57,062 bases of DNA, taken from the IMG/VR virus record IMGVR_UViG_3300031623_000006, positions 1 through 57,062 of that record, one strand, 5' to 3'. The DNA is from a virus. The position numbers were made by a program, and so were the translations under genes. The notes under the pieces were generated by a model. That model worked only from the letters and a program-made list of their open reading frames with translations, ran no database searches and had not been told where the DNA came from. How positions within the stretch are numbered: position 1 is the first letter of the stretch; every line of letters begins with the position of its first letter. Positions 7,281 to 15,599 of the stretch are shown here, piece by piece.

Positions 7281-7552
7281 AGTGCCAACCGAGCTTGGGG
7301 ACTGAAACAAGCCCACCGCGTGCCAGCCATTCCATCGGACTGAAACAGGAGTCAAGAGCGCAACCAGACACTCGGCCTGAAACATTGTCCAAGCGTGCAA
7401 CCATCAGTTTGGACTGAAACAACCTAATCGCGTGCAACCACGGTGCTGGACAGAAACACAAGCCGCGAGTGCTAACCAAGCCGGCCGACAGAACCACAAT
7501 ACTTGAGTGAAACCAACGTAGGCGACTGAAACAGAAACACCGCGTGCAAAGG
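7281..7552 (+). repeat. TIGR-like dual-spacer repeat array, upstream part (7 units plus a partial)
   Basis: Two short conserved blocks alternate. Block A is GCGTGCAACCA with variants GAGTGCTAACCA and GCGTGCCAGCCA; block B is GGACTGAAACA with variants. B copies start at 7299, 7337, 7374, 7411, 7448, 7486 and 7523. A copies start at 7281, 7318, 7356, 7393, 7430, 7467 and 7505, and a degenerate A is at 7542. The A-to-B gap is exactly 7 nt and the B-to-A gap exactly 8 nt each time. All gap sequences differ: AGCTTGG/AGCCCACC, TTCCATC/GGAGTCAA, GACACTC/TTGTCCAA, TCAGTTT/ACCTAATC, CGGTGCT/CAAGCCGC, AGCCGGC/CAATACTT, ACGTAGG/GAAACACC. The unit length is 37-38 nt. CTGA in block B recalls box D of C/D RNAs. 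This geometry matches TIGR arrays, whose ~36-nt guides have two spacers, and not CRISPR, whose spacers are longer. Confidence 0.85.
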
Positions 7553-7560
7553 AAACCGAA

Positions 7561-8472
7561 ATGTCAATCACGGCAGAACAAGCAAAAGCAGACGAAGTGA
7601 TTCGCGGCCTTACCGACCCATCAACGTGGGAACAACTCGCACGACTCGACAAAGACCTGAAGGATGCGGCAACCGATCTCGGACGTGTGCAAGCCCGCTA
7701 CCTCACTGACTGCTACTACCAATTGCAAGACTTCCGCATTGCATCCGCGGCTCAAGTTCGATCTGCCGAAGACGAGCCAAACCGCGTGCTTTCTTGGTTT
7801 TTCGCACAGATGCAAGTTCTGGAAAACGACATCAAGCGGGCGTTGAAAGAGTTCTCGTCGTCCTACGCTACCGGGCAATGGATGCAGTCGATCTGCGGCA
7901 TTGGCCCCGTCATCTCCGCTGGCATGTTGGCACAACTCGACATACGCGATTGCAAGACTGTAAGCCGCTGGTGGCGATTTGCCGGTCTCGACCCGACTGT
8001 GAAATGGGAGAAGAAATCCAAGCGACCCTGGAACGCCAAGCTCAAAGTTCTCTGTTGGAAACTCGGGGAATCGTTCATCAAAGTCCAGAACAAAAAAAAC
8101 GATTACTACGGCAAGATATTCCGCACCCGCAAGGACTACGAGATTGATCGCAACGAGAGCGGCGGCAACTCCGAGACGGCCGCACGCATCCTCACCGAGA
8201 AGAATTGGGACAAGACCACCGACGCTTTTAAGCACTACAGCGAGGGCCATTTGCCGCCAGCACAAATCAACGCTCGCGCCCGACGCTACGCCGTGAAGAT
8301 GTTCCTCTCGCATCTGCATCACGCGATGTTCGTCGATATGTACGGCAAGGAACCTCCTGTGCCTTACTCGTTCGAGCAGTTGGAGGGCGACCATCGGCAT
8401 TTCGTTGCGTTGCCGAACTGGCCGTTTGAGAGTAAGGGCGGCAAGCCGCTGTCTGATTTGTATGCGGAGTAA
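7561..8472 (+). CDS. tasA-like: TasA-like stand-alone Nop/Transposase_20-domain protein (TIGR-associated)
   Basis: The 303-residue protein has an N-terminal helical/coiled-coil part (about 1-105), then a helix-hairpin-helix core at 111-145 (GIGPVISAGMLAQLDI...RWWRFAGLDP). A basic stretch (KKSKRPWN) and further helices run to about 260. The core is what is annotated as Transposase_20 in IS110/IS116 transposases, related to the Nop domain of box C/D RNPs. The DEDD RuvC-like catalytic domain of IS110 enzymes is missing, as are any HNH or RuvC nuclease motifs. A Nop-only protein beside a dual-spacer array matches the TasA type of TIGR-Tas systems; RNA binding and guided DNA recognition are inferred. 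The start at 7561 follows AAAGGAAA, which grows out of the last, degenerate A block. The TAA stop lies inside the first block of the downstream array part. An inactive IS110 remnant is less likely, because the array is regular and the frame intact. Confidence 0.8.
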   Translation: MSITAEQAKADEVIRGLTDPSTWEQLARLDKDLKDAATDLGRVQARYLTDCYYQLQDFRIASAAQVRSAEDEPNRVLSWFFAQMQVLENDIKRALKEFSSSYATGQWMQSICGIGPVISAGMLAQLDIRDCKTVSRWWRFAGLDPTVKWEKKSKRPWNAKLKVLCWKLGESFIKVQNKKNDYYGKIFRTRKDYEIDRNESGGNSETAARILTEKNWDKTTDAFKHYSEGHLPPAQINARARRYAVKMFLSHLHHAMFVDMYGKEPPVPYSFEQLEGDHRHFVALPNWPFESKGGKPLSDLYAE

Positions 8473-8609: not shown

Positions 8610-8632
8610 AACCATCAACCAAGGGAATGAAT

Positions 8633-8860
8633 ATGTTGGTACTTTCTCGGAGAGCCGGACAGGTAATTTCAATCGGTGACAACATCACAGTTACCGTCAC
8701 CGACATTGGACCGCGTCACGTGAAGCTGGGAATCGTTGCGCCAAACCTGCCGATTGTTCGCGACGACGCAATCAGGCGCAACTACAGACCCGGCTCGATG
8801 CAGACGCCCGCCGATGTTGCGAAGCGAACGCGGGACCAAGACGACTGGATGTCGCCATGA
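8633..8860 (+). CDS. csrA: CsrA-family RNA-binding translational regulator
   Basis: The 75-residue protein begins MLVLSRRAGQ and continues through ISIGDNITVTV and VKLGIVAPNLPIVRDDAI, the five-strand core of CsrA/RsmA. The RNA-contacting N-terminal L-R-R and the Arg of the VRDD turn are present. CsrA dimers bind GGA motifs near ribosome-binding sites. The ATG at 8633 is chosen over 8627 because AAGGGA at 8621-8626 gives correct spacing and the family starts with MLVL. A ~15-residue C-terminal extension is not part of the core. The gene overlaps the following GNAT gene by four bases. Its target could be host or phage leaders, many of which carry GGA near the start. Confidence 0.9.
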   Translation: MLVLSRRAGQVISIGDNITVTVTDIGPRHVKLGIVAPNLPIVRDDAIRRNYRPGSMQTPADVAKRTRDQDDWMSP

Positions 8861-9348
8861 ATTTGATGCTCCGATGGATAATTCGCAGGGACGTGGACGA
8901 AGTTGTTCAAATCGAAGAATCATCGTTCGGTGCGCCGTGGACTGAAGGGGAATTTATGCGGTGCCTGAAACAACGGGAAGTGGTCGGCATGGTGGCCGAG
9001 CATGACCACGAAATCGCGGGCTTCATAATTTACGAACTGCACAAGTCGAAGCTCTGGATTTTGAATTTCGCCGTCTCACCATCAATGCGGCGGATGGGAG
9101 TGGGACAACAGTTGGTTGCCTGCCTCATCGGCAAGCTGTCGCAACAGCGGCGAAACCAAATTGTGTTGGACGTGCGAGAGACGAACCTCGACGCGCAACT
9201 GTTCTTTCGCGCACAGGGATTCAGCGCGGCTGGCATTATCCCTGAGCGGTACGACGACGGGGAAGACGCATATCACTTCCAACACAACCTGCAACCACTG
9301 GAGCATGAGCCAGTCAACCGACTGTCGGCGTTTTTTGATGAATCGTGA
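8857..9348 (+). CDS. RimI-like GNAT N-acetyltransferase
   Basis: The 163-residue protein follows the GNAT plan: an N-terminal IRRDVDEVVQIEESSF segment, the W-containing acceptor loop, a central strand LWILNFAVSP, motif A RRMGVGQQLV (R-x-x-G-x-G/A, acetyl-CoA pyrophosphate binding) and ETNLDAQLFFRAQGF (motif B). This resembles RimI, which acetylates the N-terminus of ribosomal protein S18; the phage substrate is unknown. It starts by ATGA overlap with csrA, so the two are co-translated. The ~25-residue tail after the domain is unusual. Confidence 0.85.
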   Translation: MNLMLRWIIRRDVDEVVQIEESSFGAPWTEGEFMRCLKQREVVGMVAEHDHEIAGFIIYELHKSKLWILNFAVSPSMRRMGVGQQLVACLIGKLSQQRRNQIVLDVRETNLDAQLFFRAQGFSAAGIIPERYDDGEDAYHFQHNLQPLEHEPVNRLSAFFDES

Positions 9349-10273: not shown

Positions 10274-10669
10274 ATGCCCAAGCAACTAACATTGCCAACC
10301 ATCCTGCCTGAACGACTGGAGAGGTTCCTGTTGTTCCACCGGGAAAATCCCGATGTCTATTCGATGTTCAGGTTTTTTGCCTTGGAGGCGAAGCGAAGCG
10401 GTGTGTCCCATTACGGTGGCCGAGCAATTGCCGAGAGAATTCGGTGGCACAAAACAGTTGAGAATCGTGTAGGCGAATTCAAATACAACGACCACCTAAC
10501 CGGTTACTACACGCGGCTGTTGATGCTGGTTGAGCCAATGCTGTTTGGGGGTTTCTTTGAAAGAAGAGACGCCCGGTTCGACGCCGATGATGAGACTCTG
10601 CTTTTCCATTTTAGTCAACTGCAAGGTGACACAGACCATGACACTCGAAAACGCAATCAACGCAATTAA
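10274..10669 (+). CDS. conserved phage protein (FHRENPxVY/AERIRWH type), function unknown
   Basis: ATG at 10274 follows GAGGAAG. The 131-residue protein carries FHRENPDVYSMFRFFA, the AIAERIRWHKTVE segment and YYTRLLMLVEPMLFGGFFERR. I know this arrangement from a widespread phage protein found next to recombination nucleases. It is probably DNA-associated, but no activity is established. The 98-bp spacer before it holds nothing I can identify. Its 3' end overlaps the next gene by 32 bases. Confidence 0.75.
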   Translation: MPKQLTLPTILPERLERFLLFHRENPDVYSMFRFFALEAKRSGVSHYGGRAIAERIRWHKTVENRVGEFKYNDHLTGYYTRLLMLVEPMLFGGFFERRDARFDADDETLLFHFSQLQGDTDHDTRKRNQRN

Positions 10670-11744
10670 CGACGCCATGCACGACGTCACCGACGAGATG
10701 CAGTTGCTCGCCGCAACGAAGGTCAAGTCTCTAATGCACGGCTACGACCGGAAGTGGAAGTACGCGGAATGGGCGACGATTTCCTTGGAAGACACCGTTC
10801 ACTTGCCAATCGTAAATCCAGCAACGGGCCGCTCGTCCCGCACCTACACGCAAGCGGGAAAGCATGATGGAATTATCGATGGGTACGGCAAACGACTGCT
10901 GCTCGAACACAAAACAACCAGCGACGACATCGAAGATCCGAACTCGACCTATTGGCGTCGGCTGGATATTGACGCACAGGTCTCGCAGTACATGCTCCAA
11001 AAATGGCAGGGCGGCGACAAACTCGACGGCACATTGTACGACGTGATTCGCAAACCGGGGATTCGTCCCAAAAAAATTGCGAATCGCGACCGGCAAGCAA
11101 TCCTGGCGACTGGCGAGTATTTCGGAATTAAAGTGTCTGAATTGACCATGCGGTCGTTTTCTGTTGGAAATGATCGCGAGAACAATGAGCTTTACTTCAA
11201 TCGCTTGCGTCGGGAAGTCCTCGATAATCCAGCAAAATACTTTCAGAGGAAACCAATCTATCGCATGGATCACGAGGTTGTCGAGTATGCAAGCGAACTG
11301 TGGAACATCGCGAAAACCATCGGCGAAGCATCGCGAGAAGATACGCACTACCGGAACTCAGAAGCGTGCATGACATGGGGTTCTCCATGCGAATACCTGG
11401 GAGTTTGTTCGGGTCACGACACGATCGATTCTGACAAGTGGGAATCAATCGAAACGGTTCACTCCGAACTGGACGGTGAGTTTCCAGACGGCGGGCGCAC
11501 CGTATTGACCTGTTCGCGAATGAAGACGTTTCAAACGTGTAGGCGTAAACACCAATACCGCTACATTCTCGGCAAACGTCGCCGAGATGACGAGGGGCGA
11601 GAAGCCCTGTTCTTAGGCACCATCATGCATCTTGCGTTAGAGGCTTGGTGGGGCCAATTTACGGAGGAAGCCAGCAATGGCGACAGCAGCAACGGGTCCC
11701 CGGCCATCGAGGTCGGCCAACCAAGAGAGTCCGAGATTTCTTGA
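10638..11744 (+). CDS. PD-(D/E)XK nuclease with apparently permuted Fe-S/N-terminal segment
   Basis: The 368-residue protein belongs to the RecB/AddB/Cas4-like PD-(D/E)XK exonucleases. D77 (AGKHDGII), E90-x-K92 (LLLEHKTT) and Q114 form the active site. C244, C251 and C257 are three of the four expected Fe-S cysteines. The segment that normally starts these proteins, SRMKTFQTCRRKHQYRY...FLGTIMHLALEAWW with the fourth cysteine C301 and conserved H331, is here at residues 293-338, after the catalytic core. The order is therefore circularly permuted relative to relatives I know. ATG at 10638 follows AAGGTGA; an open frame extends upstream to 10530 but encodes nothing similar. With the following ATPase it forms a recombination module that would process DNA ends. 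Confidence 0.8.
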   Translation: MTLENAINAINDAMHDVTDEMQLLAATKVKSLMHGYDRKWKYAEWATISLEDTVHLPIVNPATGRSSRTYTQAGKHDGIIDGYGKRLLLEHKTTSDDIEDPNSTYWRRLDIDAQVSQYMLQKWQGGDKLDGTLYDVIRKPGIRPKKIANRDRQAILATGEYFGIKVSELTMRSFSVGNDRENNELYFNRLRREVLDNPAKYFQRKPIYRMDHEVVEYASELWNIAKTIGEASREDTHYRNSEACMTWGSPCEYLGVCSGHDTIDSDKWESIETVHSELDGEFPDGGRTVLTCSRMKTFQTCRRKHQYRYILGKRRRDDEGREALFLGTIMHLALEAWWGQFTEEASNGDSSNGSPAIEVGQPRESEIS

Positions 11745-12531
11745 TCGTGTCAGTAGCAAAGGTTCTGGTTTGCCGAGCCGCGTGTGCATGCACGCTGTTG
11801 AAAAGTTTGGCAAAACGTCGTTCGCCGCTCATGCGCCGGGCGTGATCTTTGGCATGACGAAAGGTGAGACAGGATTAGAGTCACTCATTGACTCGAATCA
11901 GTTGCCAGCGGTGCCCCACTTCCCAACGTGGGAAACACACGCCGATATGATGCAGTCAATTGAGGAATTAACCACCCAGGACCACAACTACAAGACCCTC
12001 GCAATTGACACCCTGAACGGGGCTGCCGCGCTGGTGTGTGACCACGTCTGCCAGCGTGAATACAACGGCGACTGGGGACAGAAAGGATTTACCGGCTACA
12101 TGCGAGGCTATGAAGTCGCGACGACCGACTGGCGAGAATTGCTCGTGGCATTAGATCGTCTGCGATCTGAACGCAAGATGGGAATCATTTGTTTGGTGCA
12201 CACGAAGGTCAAGACCTTCAAGTCACCCGACACTGAAGATTACGACCGCTATCAGCCAGACATGCACGACAAGCTGTGGGGTCTGTCTCACAAATGGTTT
12301 GACGTGATTATGTTCGGTAATTTCTATACGGAAGTTGTCGAAACCGGCGCGAAGAGCAAAGGTAAAGGTGGACAGAATCGAGTGCTATATACCGAGCGTC
12401 ATGCTGCCTATGACGCAGGGAATCGCCTGGGACTCCCCGAGGAAATTGAGATGGGGTCGTCTGGGGCAGAAGCGTGGGACAATTTCAAAGCAGCAGTCAC
12501 TGAAGCACGAACCACGAAAGGCGGTGAATGA
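11677..12531 (+). CDS. Sak4-like / AAA_24 RecA-fold ATPase (recombination)
   Basis: The 284-residue protein has a RecA-type P-loop at residues 39-49 (AVEKFGKTSF; the first glycine is replaced, as is often seen in this phage family). A Walker B-like strand LAIDTLNG is near 105, and CLVHTKVK is the sensor strand. This is the arrangement of phage AAA_24/Sak4 proteins, single-strand annealing or Rad51-like recombinases. ATG at 11677 has GGAGG upstream and overlaps the nuclease gene by 68 bases in another frame. Neighbouring nuclease and SSB-like genes support the role. Confidence 0.75.
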   Translation: MATAATGPRPSRSANQESPRFLDRVSSKGSGLPSRVCMHAVEKFGKTSFAAHAPGVIFGMTKGETGLESLIDSNQLPAVPHFPTWETHADMMQSIEELTTQDHNYKTLAIDTLNGAAALVCDHVCQREYNGDWGQKGFTGYMRGYEVATTDWRELLVALDRLRSERKMGIICLVHTKVKTFKSPDTEDYDRYQPDMHDKLWGLSHKWFDVIMFGNFYTEVVETGAKSKGKGGQNRVLYTERHAAYDAGNRLGLPEEIEMGSSGAEAWDNFKAAVTEARTTKGGE

Positions 12532-13079
12532 ACATGAGACAGCCAGAATATAAAGAGGGAAACTACGTCGCCAAGGTGGTGGATCAGGCATTCACGGAAA
12601 CTCGGGAAAAAAAGAAGCCCATGATCGTTCTGCGGGTGACAATCAACAACCTGCTGGTGGATGCTGGAACAAAATTTGAGGAACTCCAGAACCTCGCAAA
12701 CCACTACGAACGCAAGATTCATCTTGTCATCAACCACGACAGCGATAAGGCGATGGAGTTTCTTCTCAAGAAGCTGCGATATGCAGGGTTTGAAAAACCA
12801 TCGTTCCGCGACTTTAACCTTGCCGGATCGACCGTTCGATGCACTTGCAGTCACGACCTTTCAAGCGAGTATCCAGAAAACTGGGACTTGATGCTCCCCC
12901 CTCGCGAAAGCACCCCGCTGGTGCATGACCCTAAACTGTCAAAAAAGATGGACGCGCTCTTCGGAAAGGCGCTCAAGGAACCGATCACCAATTCGGCTGA
13001 ATCGCCAATCGAAACGGACGTGGAACCACCGCGAGAGGACGCACCAATACTGCCACCGGACGATGAGGTTCCGTTCTAG
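12528..13079 (+). CDS. SSB-like single-stranded DNA-binding protein with acidic tail
   Basis: The start overlaps the ATPase stop (ATGA at 12528); a second ATG two codons on is an alternative. The first ~120 residues alternate strands and short helices, in the manner of the DUF669-type phage proteins that accompany Sak4-like ATPases. The C-terminus is an acidic, proline-rich linker ending DDEVPF, the signature of bacterial SSB tails (DDDIPF) that recruit repair proteins. It is probably the phage's own ssDNA-binding protein, working with the preceding nuclease and ATPase. Confidence 0.65.
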   Translation: MNMRQPEYKEGNYVAKVVDQAFTETREKKKPMIVLRVTINNLLVDAGTKFEELQNLANHYERKIHLVINHDSDKAMEFLLKKLRYAGFEKPSFRDFNLAGSTVRCTCSHDLSSEYPENWDLMLPPRESTPLVHDPKLSKKMDALFGKALKEPITNSAESPIETDVEPPREDAPILPPDDEVPF

Positions 13080-13993: not shown

Positions 13994-14797
13994 ATGGCAC
14001 GGAAACTGCCGTGGTTCCAATTTTTTGCTGCTGACTGGCGAACTGACGCCAAGTTATCGCTCTGTACGCCCGCTACTCGCGGCGTCTGGATTGATCTGAT
14101 TTGCGCTATGCACGAACTCGACCGCTCGGGAGAACTGCGTGGTACGACCGAACAGCTCGCTCGTATTGCCCGTTGCTCGGCCGTTGAGATGAAAGCCGCG
14201 TTGACCGACCTCCAGGCCACCGAAGCTGCTGATGTCACAGAACGTAACGGCGTTGTCACAGTCACTAACAGGCGGATGAAGTCTGAGTTTGACGGGCGTA
14301 AGTCTAATGCCAGTAGGCAGAAGCGATGTCGCACAAGTCAGTCTCGGAACCGTCACGCAAAAAGTAACGGTGATGTCGCGCAGGAGAGTCAGAGTCAACA
14401 GTCAAATACAGACAGGGGGAGACCCCCTAAACCCCCCTCCGGTGGATTGTCGTTTTCTGCCGAGGATCGGAAACTTGCCGAGTGGATGTTCGTGCTGGTG
14501 GTGAAGATTCAGCCTCAAGCCAAAAACCCGAATTTCGACAAATGGGCAAACACAATCCGGTTGATGCGTGAACAAGACAAGCGGACATTGACCGAAATCC
14601 GAGAGTTGTTTGATCTGTCGAACAAGGATGATTTCTGGAAAGCCAACATTCGCAGTCCCGAGAAGCTCCGAAGTAAGTGGGACGACCTCGATGCTCGCCG
14701 CAGCACCGGGCGTCTCGGCAATTCAAAACCCCAGAAATCCGGCAAGGACTCAGCCAACTACACCACCGACTCGAAAGACACAGATGGCACTTTCTGA
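13994..14797 (+). CDS. replication initiator-like protein (DUF1376 N-terminus, DnaD-like C-terminus)
   Basis: The 267-residue protein starts PWFQFFAADWRTDAKLSLCTPATRGVWIDLICAMHE...GELRGTTEQLARIA, the winged-helix beginning typical of DUF1376-type phage replication proteins. A basic, low-complexity linker (about 95-150) follows, then a C-terminal helical part ending FWKANIRSPEKLRSKWDDL, which resembles DnaD/replisome-organiser tails. It would bind the phage origin and recruit the DnaC-like loader encoded downstream. ATG at 13994 has only a weak site (ACGACAAG). It precedes a cassette that separates it from the loader gene. Confidence 0.75.
   Translation: MARKLPWFQFFAADWRTDAKLSLCTPATRGVWIDLICAMHELDRSGELRGTTEQLARIARCSAVEMKAALTDLQATEAADVTERNGVVTVTNRRMKSEFDGRKSNASRQKRCRTSQSRNRHAKSNGDVAQESQSQQSNTDRGRPPKPPSGGLSFSAEDRKLAEWMFVLVVKIQPQAKNPNFDKWANTIRLMREQDKRTLTEIRELFDLSNKDDFWKANIRSPEKLRSKWDDLDARRSTGRLGNSKPQKSGKDSANYTTDSKDTDGTF
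14784..14797 (+). repeat. 14-bp direct repeat, left copy
   Basis: ATGGCACTTTCTGA here, covering the end of the replication gene, is repeated exactly at 15853-15866, where it begins the helicase loader gene. The two copies bracket the tRNA-like and Mom-like cassette. Confidence 0.6.
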
Positions 14798-14811
14798 AGG
14801 AACAACGAAAC

Positions 14812-14884
14812 GCGCCGGAGGTGTAAGGGTTGCACGTCCGCTATTCCATGCGGAAGGAGGCGGTTCAACTCCGACCTCGGCGCT
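14812..14884 (+). tRNA. tRNA-Gly(UCC)-like sequence with 8-nt anticodon loop (possible degenerate tRNA)
   Basis: The 73 bases fold as a cloverleaf. A 7-bp acceptor GCGCCGG (14812-14818) pairs TCGGCGC (14877-14883), followed by discriminator T, as in bacterial tRNA-Gly. The D stem is GTGT/GCAC with loop AAGGGTT, and the anticodon stem is TCCGC/GCGGA. The T arm matches the consensus GGTTCRANTCC (14862-14872). Departures are A instead of U at position 8, an 8-nt anticodon loop TATTCCAT containing TCC, and one bulged A in the T stem. No CCA is encoded. It fits exactly in the gap between two protein genes. It may be a functional variant, a pseudogene or a remnant of tRNA-based integration. Confidence 0.5.
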
Positions 14885-14918
14885 TTGCCATCAAAAATCA
14901 ATCAGAGACAAGGCCGCG

Positions 14919-15599
14919 ATGGAGTACCGGCCCAGCGGGCTATTTAATGATATCCCCAGCAGTCACGACCGGGCAGATATCGGCACAAGTGTCGTGAGAA
15001 GGGTTTCGTGGAGGGCGGCAAACGCCATTATTCTGAAATACGAATGGCTAGGCTCGATGGCAATGAAGACTACAGACTGCTTTGGTATCTATTTTGGGGG
15101 TTTTCTCGCCGGAGTCTGTTGCTTTTCGCCCCCACCCACACCCCACGTCGCGATGGGGGCGATTGGGAAAGATCACGTCAACCTTGTTAAAGTTCTCTCT
15201 CGCGGCGCATGTGTCTGGTGGGCGCACGAGCATTCCGCCAGCAAGCTCATTTCCCTCGCGACGAAAATCATGGTCAGTGAAACACGATATAGGGTGTTTT
15301 TAGCATTTTCTGATCCGAGAGCAATGGAAATCGGCACTGTGTACCAAGCGTCAAATTGGATTTACACCGGAATAACAAATTCTCACACTTCGTACTTCAT
15401 TGGCGGGGCATGGAGAACCGAAAGATCAGCACGGCAAGAAAGTTACCGGATTGCCGGTATCGACTTCCGAAAATGTCCCAAGAAGAAAGAACCGGGAAAG
15501 CACAGGTACTTGAAGCTGGACGCACCAACCAAGAGGGAACGGCAATATATTCGCGGCCTAATCAGGTATGAGGGGTTGCCGTATCCGAAGAGGACGTGA
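14919..15599 (+). CDS. Mom-like DNA-modification protein (GNAT-related fold)
   Basis: The 226-residue protein shows the core of Mu Mom-like proteins: YEWLGSMAMKTTDCFGIYFGGFLAGVCCF (about 41-69), RGACVWWAHEHSASKLIS (about 96-112) and the signature FLAFSDPRAMEIGTVYQASNWIYTG (about 127-151). Mom adds a carbamoylmethyl group to N6 of adenine and shields phage DNA from restriction. The modification made here cannot be read from sequence. The ATG at 14919, with AAGG upstream, is preferred because the frame upstream runs through the tRNA-like element. The C-terminus is basic. It sits inside a small cassette bounded by a 14-bp direct repeat. Confidence 0.7.
   Translation: MEYRPSGLFNDIPSSHDRADIGTSVVRRVSWRAANAIILKYEWLGSMAMKTTDCFGIYFGGFLAGVCCFSPPPTPHVAMGAIGKDHVNLVKVLSRGACVWWAHEHSASKLISLATKIMVSETRYRVFLAFSDPRAMEIGTVYQASNWIYTGITNSHTSYFIGGAWRTERSARQESYRIAGIDFRKCPKKKEPGKHRYLKLDAPTKRERQYIRGLIRYEGLPYPKRT

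Follow-up and report, generated by a model that had tools for sequence, protein, structure and literature searches.

A predicted Fe-S PD-(D/E)XK exonuclease with a circularly permuted segment order in a virus, and a second rotation within its family

Introduction

Circular permutation of proteins is a known event, and one viral gene raises the question of whether a PD-(D/E)XK recombination nuclease has undergone it with all of its parts kept. The gene lies in the window, by which we mean the whole stretch of 57,062 bases analysed here (virus record IMGVR_UViG_3300031623_000006). A first-pass annotation had read its product as a circular permutation with both parts intact, in which a catalytic D...ExK...Q core and three cysteines come first and the segment that usually starts such nucleases comes last; it knew of no described permuted member. 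The larger superfamily survey made by Steczkiewicz and others in 2012 reportedly may mention other permutations. We conclude that the gene very probably encodes a circularly permuted PD-(D/E)XK exonuclease, predicted to be active and to belong to the Fe-S (AddB/Cas4-like) nucleases. It would act with the Sak4 annealase and the SSB-like protein of the next genes, in a family that also has a separate second rotation (type 2). The predicted cluster would be of the 4Fe-4S type.

Results

The usual N-terminal segment stands at the C-terminal end

A ribosome-site-like AAGGTGA lies 8 bases upstream of the nuclease ATG (Table 1). Along the chain follow GKHDG with the catalytic D77 (codon 10866-10868) in segment C1; E90-H-K92 (the E90xK92 motif, 10905-10913), Q114xxxY118 (10977-10991) and the cysteine triad C244/C251/C257 (11367-11408) in segment C2; and, in segment NSEG, S293...C301...G327...H331-L-A-L-E-A-W-W, where C301 is the fourth cysteine (11538-11540) and H331 (11628-11630) precedes the ALEAWW stretch. 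The AlphaFold2 model of the window protein places helices at residues 2-13 and 20-40 and strands at 46-59 and 66-82 of C1. In usual members of the family NSEG is the first segment and C1 the second.

Two profiles bear on this order. phrog_1218 (exonuclease, 364 positions) matches the protein in two stretches, the better of which aligns residues 14-257 with profile positions 85-329 (E 1.5e-26), and Pfam PDDEXK_1 (247 positions) aligns residues 290-344 with positions 2-56 (E 2.6e-10). Both partial matches have E-values far below chance, so the usual N-terminal part sits at the C-terminal end, as the first-pass annotation had claimed. Judged by a sequence match over most of the profile, the protein belongs to PHROG 1218, whose Sak4-associated exonucleases share its segments, catalytic residues, four cysteines and operon slot before Sak4; judged by segment order it does not, the profile running NSEG-C1-C2 and the window protein C1-C2-NSEG. 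The linker before NSEG reads as the usual C-tail merged with the N-head (HSEL-DGEFPDGGRTV-LTCS). The whole 57,062-base record contains one match to the nuclease protein at E <= 0.001.

Table 1 Features of the nuclease locus in the window and the evidence for each.
Feature	Position	Strand	Evidence
Predicted circularly permuted Fe-S PD-(D/E)XK nuclease, whole gene	10638..11744	+	368 aa and stop; Pfam and PHROG matches, Tunturi matches, AlphaFold2
Segment C1, residues 1-84	10638..10889	+	phrog_1218 alignment, predicted secondary structure; catalytic D kept in 143/143
Segment C2, residues 85-285	10890..11492	+	includes the linker toward the C-terminal segment
Segment NSEG, residues 286-344	11493..11669	+	Pfam PDDEXK_1 positions 2-56; C301, G327 and H331 kept in 143/143
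C-terminal tail, residues 345-368	11670..11741	+	pLDDT <50; overlaps the start of the next gene (11677)
Sak4-like single-strand annealing/RecA-like partner gene	11677..12531	+	phrog_124 E 3.8e-32; AAA_24 E 2.3e-30
Probable single-strand DNA binding protein	12528..13079	+	position, acidic PDDEVPF end

Relatives occur in all three cyclic orders

A tblastn search of 50,697 phage records returned two matches, both colinear with the window protein: Tunturiibacter phage Tunturi_2 (window residues 1-343, 43.2% identity) and Tunturiibacter phage Tunturi_1 (residues 24-341, 45.0% identity). Both are isolated phages with complete circular records, and in each record the first 59 positions of phrog_1218 match downstream of positions 105-329. 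The proteins concerned, Tunturi_1 gp59 and Tunturi_2 gp56, have the same rotation as the window protein and are annotated only as exonuclease. The paper on these phages reports Illumina sequencing; its main text is without the word 'nuclease', uses 'permut' twice, for statistics only, and leaves the rotation unmentioned (PMC11924767).

The wider family was collected by eight scans of viral_contigs and one of genome_contigs. As a single sequence the window protein found no match in viral_contigs, and alignments were needed as queries; genome_contigs gave one relative, in the usual order, and a search of the plasmid collection matched none. Each of the three segments, namely NSEG (S...C...G...H-x-A-L-E-A-W-W), C1 (two helices and strands to GKxDG) and C2 (ExK to the cysteine triad), was scored with its own HMM in all frames of at least 60 codons. 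An interim set of 148 distinct sequences held 81 usual, 54 type-1, 8 type-2 and 5 cut or incomplete members. In the final set of 202 distinct relatives, 120 had the order NSEG-C1-C2 (usual), 56 had C1-C2-NSEG (type 1, the order of the window) and 22 had C2-NSEG-C1 (type 2); the remaining four were three C1-C2 proteins whose frame is open at the contig end and one NSEG-C2 protein with C1 undetected. All three cyclic orders are present among these 202, in proportions that are not frequencies, because the scans kept the best 80 of 81, 212, 179 and 130 confirmed stretches per query and the sample is non-random. The window gene is thus a member of a widespread type-1 lineage and not a singleton, and the search for further permuted homologues that the first-pass annotation had proposed was fruitful for both rotated classes.

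Type 2 was first met in the protein L117. Its chain opens a little ahead of EHKTTS, continues with the triad, the usual first segment and C1, and stops just after GKLDG. Seven further type-2 members (L148-L154) came from the next scan, followed by 14 more distinct ones. Two of the type-2 genes, L152 (3986-5116) and L154 (3980-5233), encode a CxxC insert (CPEC, CAAC) after a YDVIRK stretch, perhaps a small metal-binding insert. In Weizmannia phage Youna2 (L226, 2662-3735) NSEG stands before C2, C1 is too diverged for the segment model, and an AAA gene comes next.

Among the 202 relatives we found no non-cyclic order and no doubled segment, and among those listed no broken C2 in inverted order. 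The main frames of the interim 148 contained no second NSEG or C1 copy above 2 bits, and the flanks (2-4 kb or less) of the 78 permuted loci, read in six frames and through stops, contained no remnant above 6 bits. Outside the main frames, lone segments gave two weak hits that were taken as chance (10.1 bits over 12 residues in L220; 12.3 bits, on the opposite strand, in L132). The claim of a circular permutation with both parts intact agrees with this picture: each segment occurs once, in cyclic order, with no second copy above 6 bits.

Catalytic residues, cysteines and the moved segment are conserved

The residue counts, spans, Mantel test and neighbourhood counts reported here and below refer to 143 interim sequences (81 usual, 54 type 1, 8 type 2) and not to the final set. 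D77, K92, Q114, C244, C251, C257, C301, G327 and H331 are kept in all 143; position 90 is E in 133 and D in 10, and Y118 is kept in 142. The D...(D/E)xK...QxxxY signature of the RecB/AddB branch of PD-(D/E)XK nucleases is therefore present, as are the four cysteines of the Fe-S (AddB/Cas4-like) nucleases, with the single cysteine placed after the three and not, as in the usual order, before them.

Among the 25 of 36 close type-1 pairs that are listed, dN is well below dS in the core; in the moved segment of the same listed pairs dN is well below dS wherever changes can be counted, and two pairs show zero changes. Across the 143 sequences identity in the segment tracks identity in the core (Mantel r 0.79, reached in none of 500 shuffles), as would be expected if the gene had been rotated on its own and the segment had not come from another source. 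The two Tunturi genes (Tunturi_2, L002, 4007-5044; Tunturi_1, L003, 3947-4981) differ by a pN of 0.024 in the core and of 0.223 in the C-terminal segment; the segments are far apart despite a near-alike core, as though only this block had been exchanged or were evolving faster.

Both rotated chains are predicted to fold as one domain

AlphaFold2, run on the window protein with 40 type-1 relatives, gave a model with a pLDDT of 92.2 and a pTM of 0.86, in which only residues 345-368 fall below 50. The model of the type-2 protein L149 with seven relatives reached a pLDDT of 90.0 and a pTM of 0.83. Type-1 and type-2 chains are thus each predicted to fold as one confident domain, type 1 up to residue 344, and the model confidence suggests that the C-terminal segment would pack in its usual place.

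Fold comparison was made with VIA-align, which is bound to chain order. Residues 1-259 of the type-1 model fit residues 841-1038 of AdnA (9np6_A; Z 9.1, rmsd 3.3, 179 aligned). The model also fits the Argonaute-associated Cas4 (ACE1) from residue 70 or 78 onward (Z 7.5-7.6); the C-terminal segment is left over. Residues 186-315 of the type-2 model, comprising NSEG and C1, fit AdnA 9np6_A 792-927 (Z 4.6) and ACE1 3-155 (Z 3.9); the type-2 Z values are all below 5, although a method tied to chain order is bound to score lower when the chain is rotated. The type-1 and type-2 fits to AdnA overlap in C1 and together span the usual chain in its usual order. In nuclease domains of the AddB/AdnA/Cas4/Dna2 type the part fitting NSEG comes first, whereas in the window protein it comes last.

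Foldseek against solved structures returned no match at E <= 0.001 for either model, and the type-2 model gave weak mixed matches in the PDB, cytochromes P450 among them. A phmmer search of solved structures found nothing credible (best E 0.42), so the relation to solved folds is drawn from fold comparison alone. In BFVD, A0A6J5NSY1 aligns with the type-1 model along its length (TM 0.76/0.81), and the other 49 matches listed have a TMq of at most 0.52.

The break points differ and the family has been permuted at least twice

Alignments together with predicted helices and strands indicate that the old termini have been joined and that the new termini lie at a former loop. The window lineage starts at the helix after EAWW (LENAINAI). 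In L185, a protein present in two records (L185 and L187), the helix ERIEAALAAL stays with the C-terminal segment and the protein starts at the following helix. The type-2 break falls in the hairpin between the strand of the catalytic D and the strand of the catalytic ExK. The type-1 junction from C257 to S293 has a median length of 34 residues (range 24-41, 54 sequences), against a median of 28 residues after C257 in 81 usual members; the rotation is probably tolerated because the old N- and C-ends lie close, as these medians suggest.

Pfam and PHROG profiles have the usual order, which we take as ancestral for that reason. In its core, L185 shares 63.6% identity with the usual-order L222 and at best 49.2% with any other type 1; its segment is 73% identical to the segment of the usual-order L218. 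L117, of type 2, reaches 56.9% identity to usual-order proteins versus 46.4% to the nearest type 1. A quick tree of 189 rows, from which nine far usual-order rows had been dropped, placed type 1 in three places (25 rows, 30 rows and L185) and type 2 in two (17 and 5, weakly supported); across the trees, type 1 occupies three positions and type 2 at least two. Cut sequences without a segment were left out of most trees (L087 and L005 were in one early tree), and some cut but classifiable ones, such as L080, L082 and L324, were kept.

AU tests gave outcomes that depend on the row set. With 81 rows, a single clade of 55 type 1 and the cut L087 was not rejected (p 0.341). With 39 rows (one per 52% identity, L222 dropped), a single clade of all type 1 was again not rejected (p 0.325), clades A and B joined without L185 had p 0.616 and a better likelihood than the free tree, and type 2 as one clade had p 0.2. 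With 47 rows (L222 and all eight type 2 then known added; L034, L039, L099 and L135 removed), p was 0.0372 for type 1 and 0.00964 for type 2, in a test whose rows and groups were picked after earlier trees had been seen and whose bootstrap had not settled. Given this dependence, clades A and B may share one origin, and type 2 may have one. The two different rotations by themselves show two permutation events, and the family has been permuted at least twice. The break point of L185 is likely a third event, and further events are possible.

Sak4 usually lies downstream of the nuclease gene in all three forms

The product of the gene after Sak4 in the window had no PHROG or NCBIfam match and only Pfam matches of E 0.15 or worse. 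In Tunturi_1 and Tunturi_2 a small gene, Sak4 and SSB come after the nuclease gene, SSB being annotated as single strand DNA binding protein. A Sak4 gene lies within 3 kb downstream in 47 of 52 type-1, 64 of 78 usual and 8 of 8 type-2 loci with enough flanking DNA (2, 3 and 0 set aside); the gene next to L117, of type 2, is a Sak4 homologue. The Sak4 of phage HK620 is described as annealing single strands with the help of its SSB (PMC5928155).

The type-1 protein would have arisen by fusion of the usual C-tail and N-head into a short linker, with the new chain ends placed in the loop that separates the EAWW helix from the one after it. The fold would then close in the normal way, the middle triad and the C-terminal cysteine together holding the Fe-S cluster. 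Judging by family and operon, the nuclease would resect one strand at DNA ends, the SSB-like protein would coat the single strand and Sak4 would pair it with a partner strand; the rotation itself would not be needed for this role. The type-2 rotation, with its break between the D strand and the ExK strand, would be an independent event within this family and operon slot. The most economical origin would be tandem gene duplication followed by loss of the outer parts.

Other genes of the window were also noted. A 303-aa protein (7561-8472, +) matches NCBIfam NF052498.1, 'TIGR-Tas system RNA-guided endonuclease' (179.2 bits, cut-off 100), and imperfect direct repeats of 37 nt just upstream (7282-7547) resemble a TIGR array; Tandem Repeats Finder reported no repeat at 7282-7547. 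A frame at 8627-8860 (+) resembles the N-terminal half of CsrA (43.3 bits, below the cut-off of 73) and is followed at 8857-9348 (+) by a RimI-like ribosomal protein acetyltransferase (91.8 bits, cut-off 86.4). A Mom-like DNA modification protein (14703-15599, +; phrog_1384 E 8.4e-26) overlaps a DnaD-like loader gene (13994-14797).

Discussion

Could the rotated order be something other than a working permuted enzyme? The window comes from one virus record, 57,062 bases long, which would leave room for an assembly or sequencing artefact, one of the objections raised by the first-pass annotation. Yet two isolated phages, Tunturi_1 and Tunturi_2, and 56 distinct sequences have the same order colinearly within a single open frame and, for the most part, with the same operon neighbours, and both parts of the gene have dN well below dS in the listed close type-1 pairs; we regard an artefact as practically ruled out. 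Its other objection was that the C-terminal piece is a separate partial second domain. Tandem fusions of nuclease domains are known in principle, so a complete core followed by the remnant of a second domain, or by a functionless leftover, is conceivable; but the core has no other copy of the segment, the flanks of the 78 permuted loci contain no remnant above 6 bits, the four cysteines and the segment residues C301, G327 and H331 are invariant, the segment has dN well below dS in listed pairs with enough changes, and the chain is modelled as one domain. We consider this reading very unlikely. In a domain swap, one chain would lend its C-terminal segment to the core of a second chain, and the enzyme would work only as a dimer or chain of subunits; a segment at the chain end behind a linker of the length given above would make this easy. 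Against it, the chain modelled by itself gives one confident domain, and the linker roughly equals the usual C-tail plus N-head in length, so that closing within one chain is possible; we hold swapping to be improbable, though less remote than a remnant. Translation from a rearranged or circular RNA is a needless assumption, one plain frame encoding the protein.

If the permutation is real, a gene that underwent fission and was later re-fused, or a gene piece that moved, might account for it instead of tandem duplication. No duplicated intermediate or leftover was found in the relatives and loci scanned, which favours such a route; but only cyclic orders occur among the 202 relatives, and no convincing gene for a separate lone segment was seen. 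Duplication with truncation predicts cyclic-only orders directly, while under fission and re-fusion two separate steps would have to yield them by coincidence. We hold this route to be unlikely, yet a serious competitor of tandem duplication, which we prefer. A more far-reaching reading, for and against which we see the balance as even, is that the family has undergone three or more permutations, with three different break points: ahead of helix B in the window lineage, behind helix B in L185 and within the D/ExK hairpin in type 2. All rotations would then coexist in one operon slot; the enzyme would be a closed ring with movable ends, and the recombination module may itself make the tandem duplications that rotate it.

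HsdS families IA, IB and IC form a natural circular-permutation set of one protein and are described as functionally equivalent (PMC3874165). There, two alternating specificity and dimerisation parts ease rotation, whereas no repeated segment was found in the nuclease, and its break can fall inside the active-site hairpin. For XPF/Hef, migrated active-site residues and a topological variant are described (PMC1189080), and the type III Cas10 protein has a circularly permuted HD domain (PMC3150331), so permuted nuclease-type domains as such were already known. The available texts on Cas4 families (PMC5704561) and type II restriction enzymes (PMC4081073) are without 'permut', and PMC3482391 is indexed with one 'circularly permuted' and 13 'endonuclease fold', its main text being without 'circularly permuted'. 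The first-pass view that a permuted member is undescribed held for the open-licence literature, most subscription papers lying outside it, where we found no paper describing one; it was incomplete in that the protein is not a singleton and other permuted members had been deposited unrecognised.

We know of no other small single-domain nuclease that occurs in all rotations alongside sisters of usual order, with one break between catalytic residues on neighbouring strands. Whole-length profile annotation can truncate permuted genes; Pfam covers 55 residues of the window protein. The matched natural proteins make it testable which termini are needed for an Fe-S nuclease to fold, whether cluster loading depends on the order of synthesis, and whether tandem duplication drives permutation. 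The presence of all rotations in viral relatives suggests that the ends of this chain can be moved while the enzyme stays intact.
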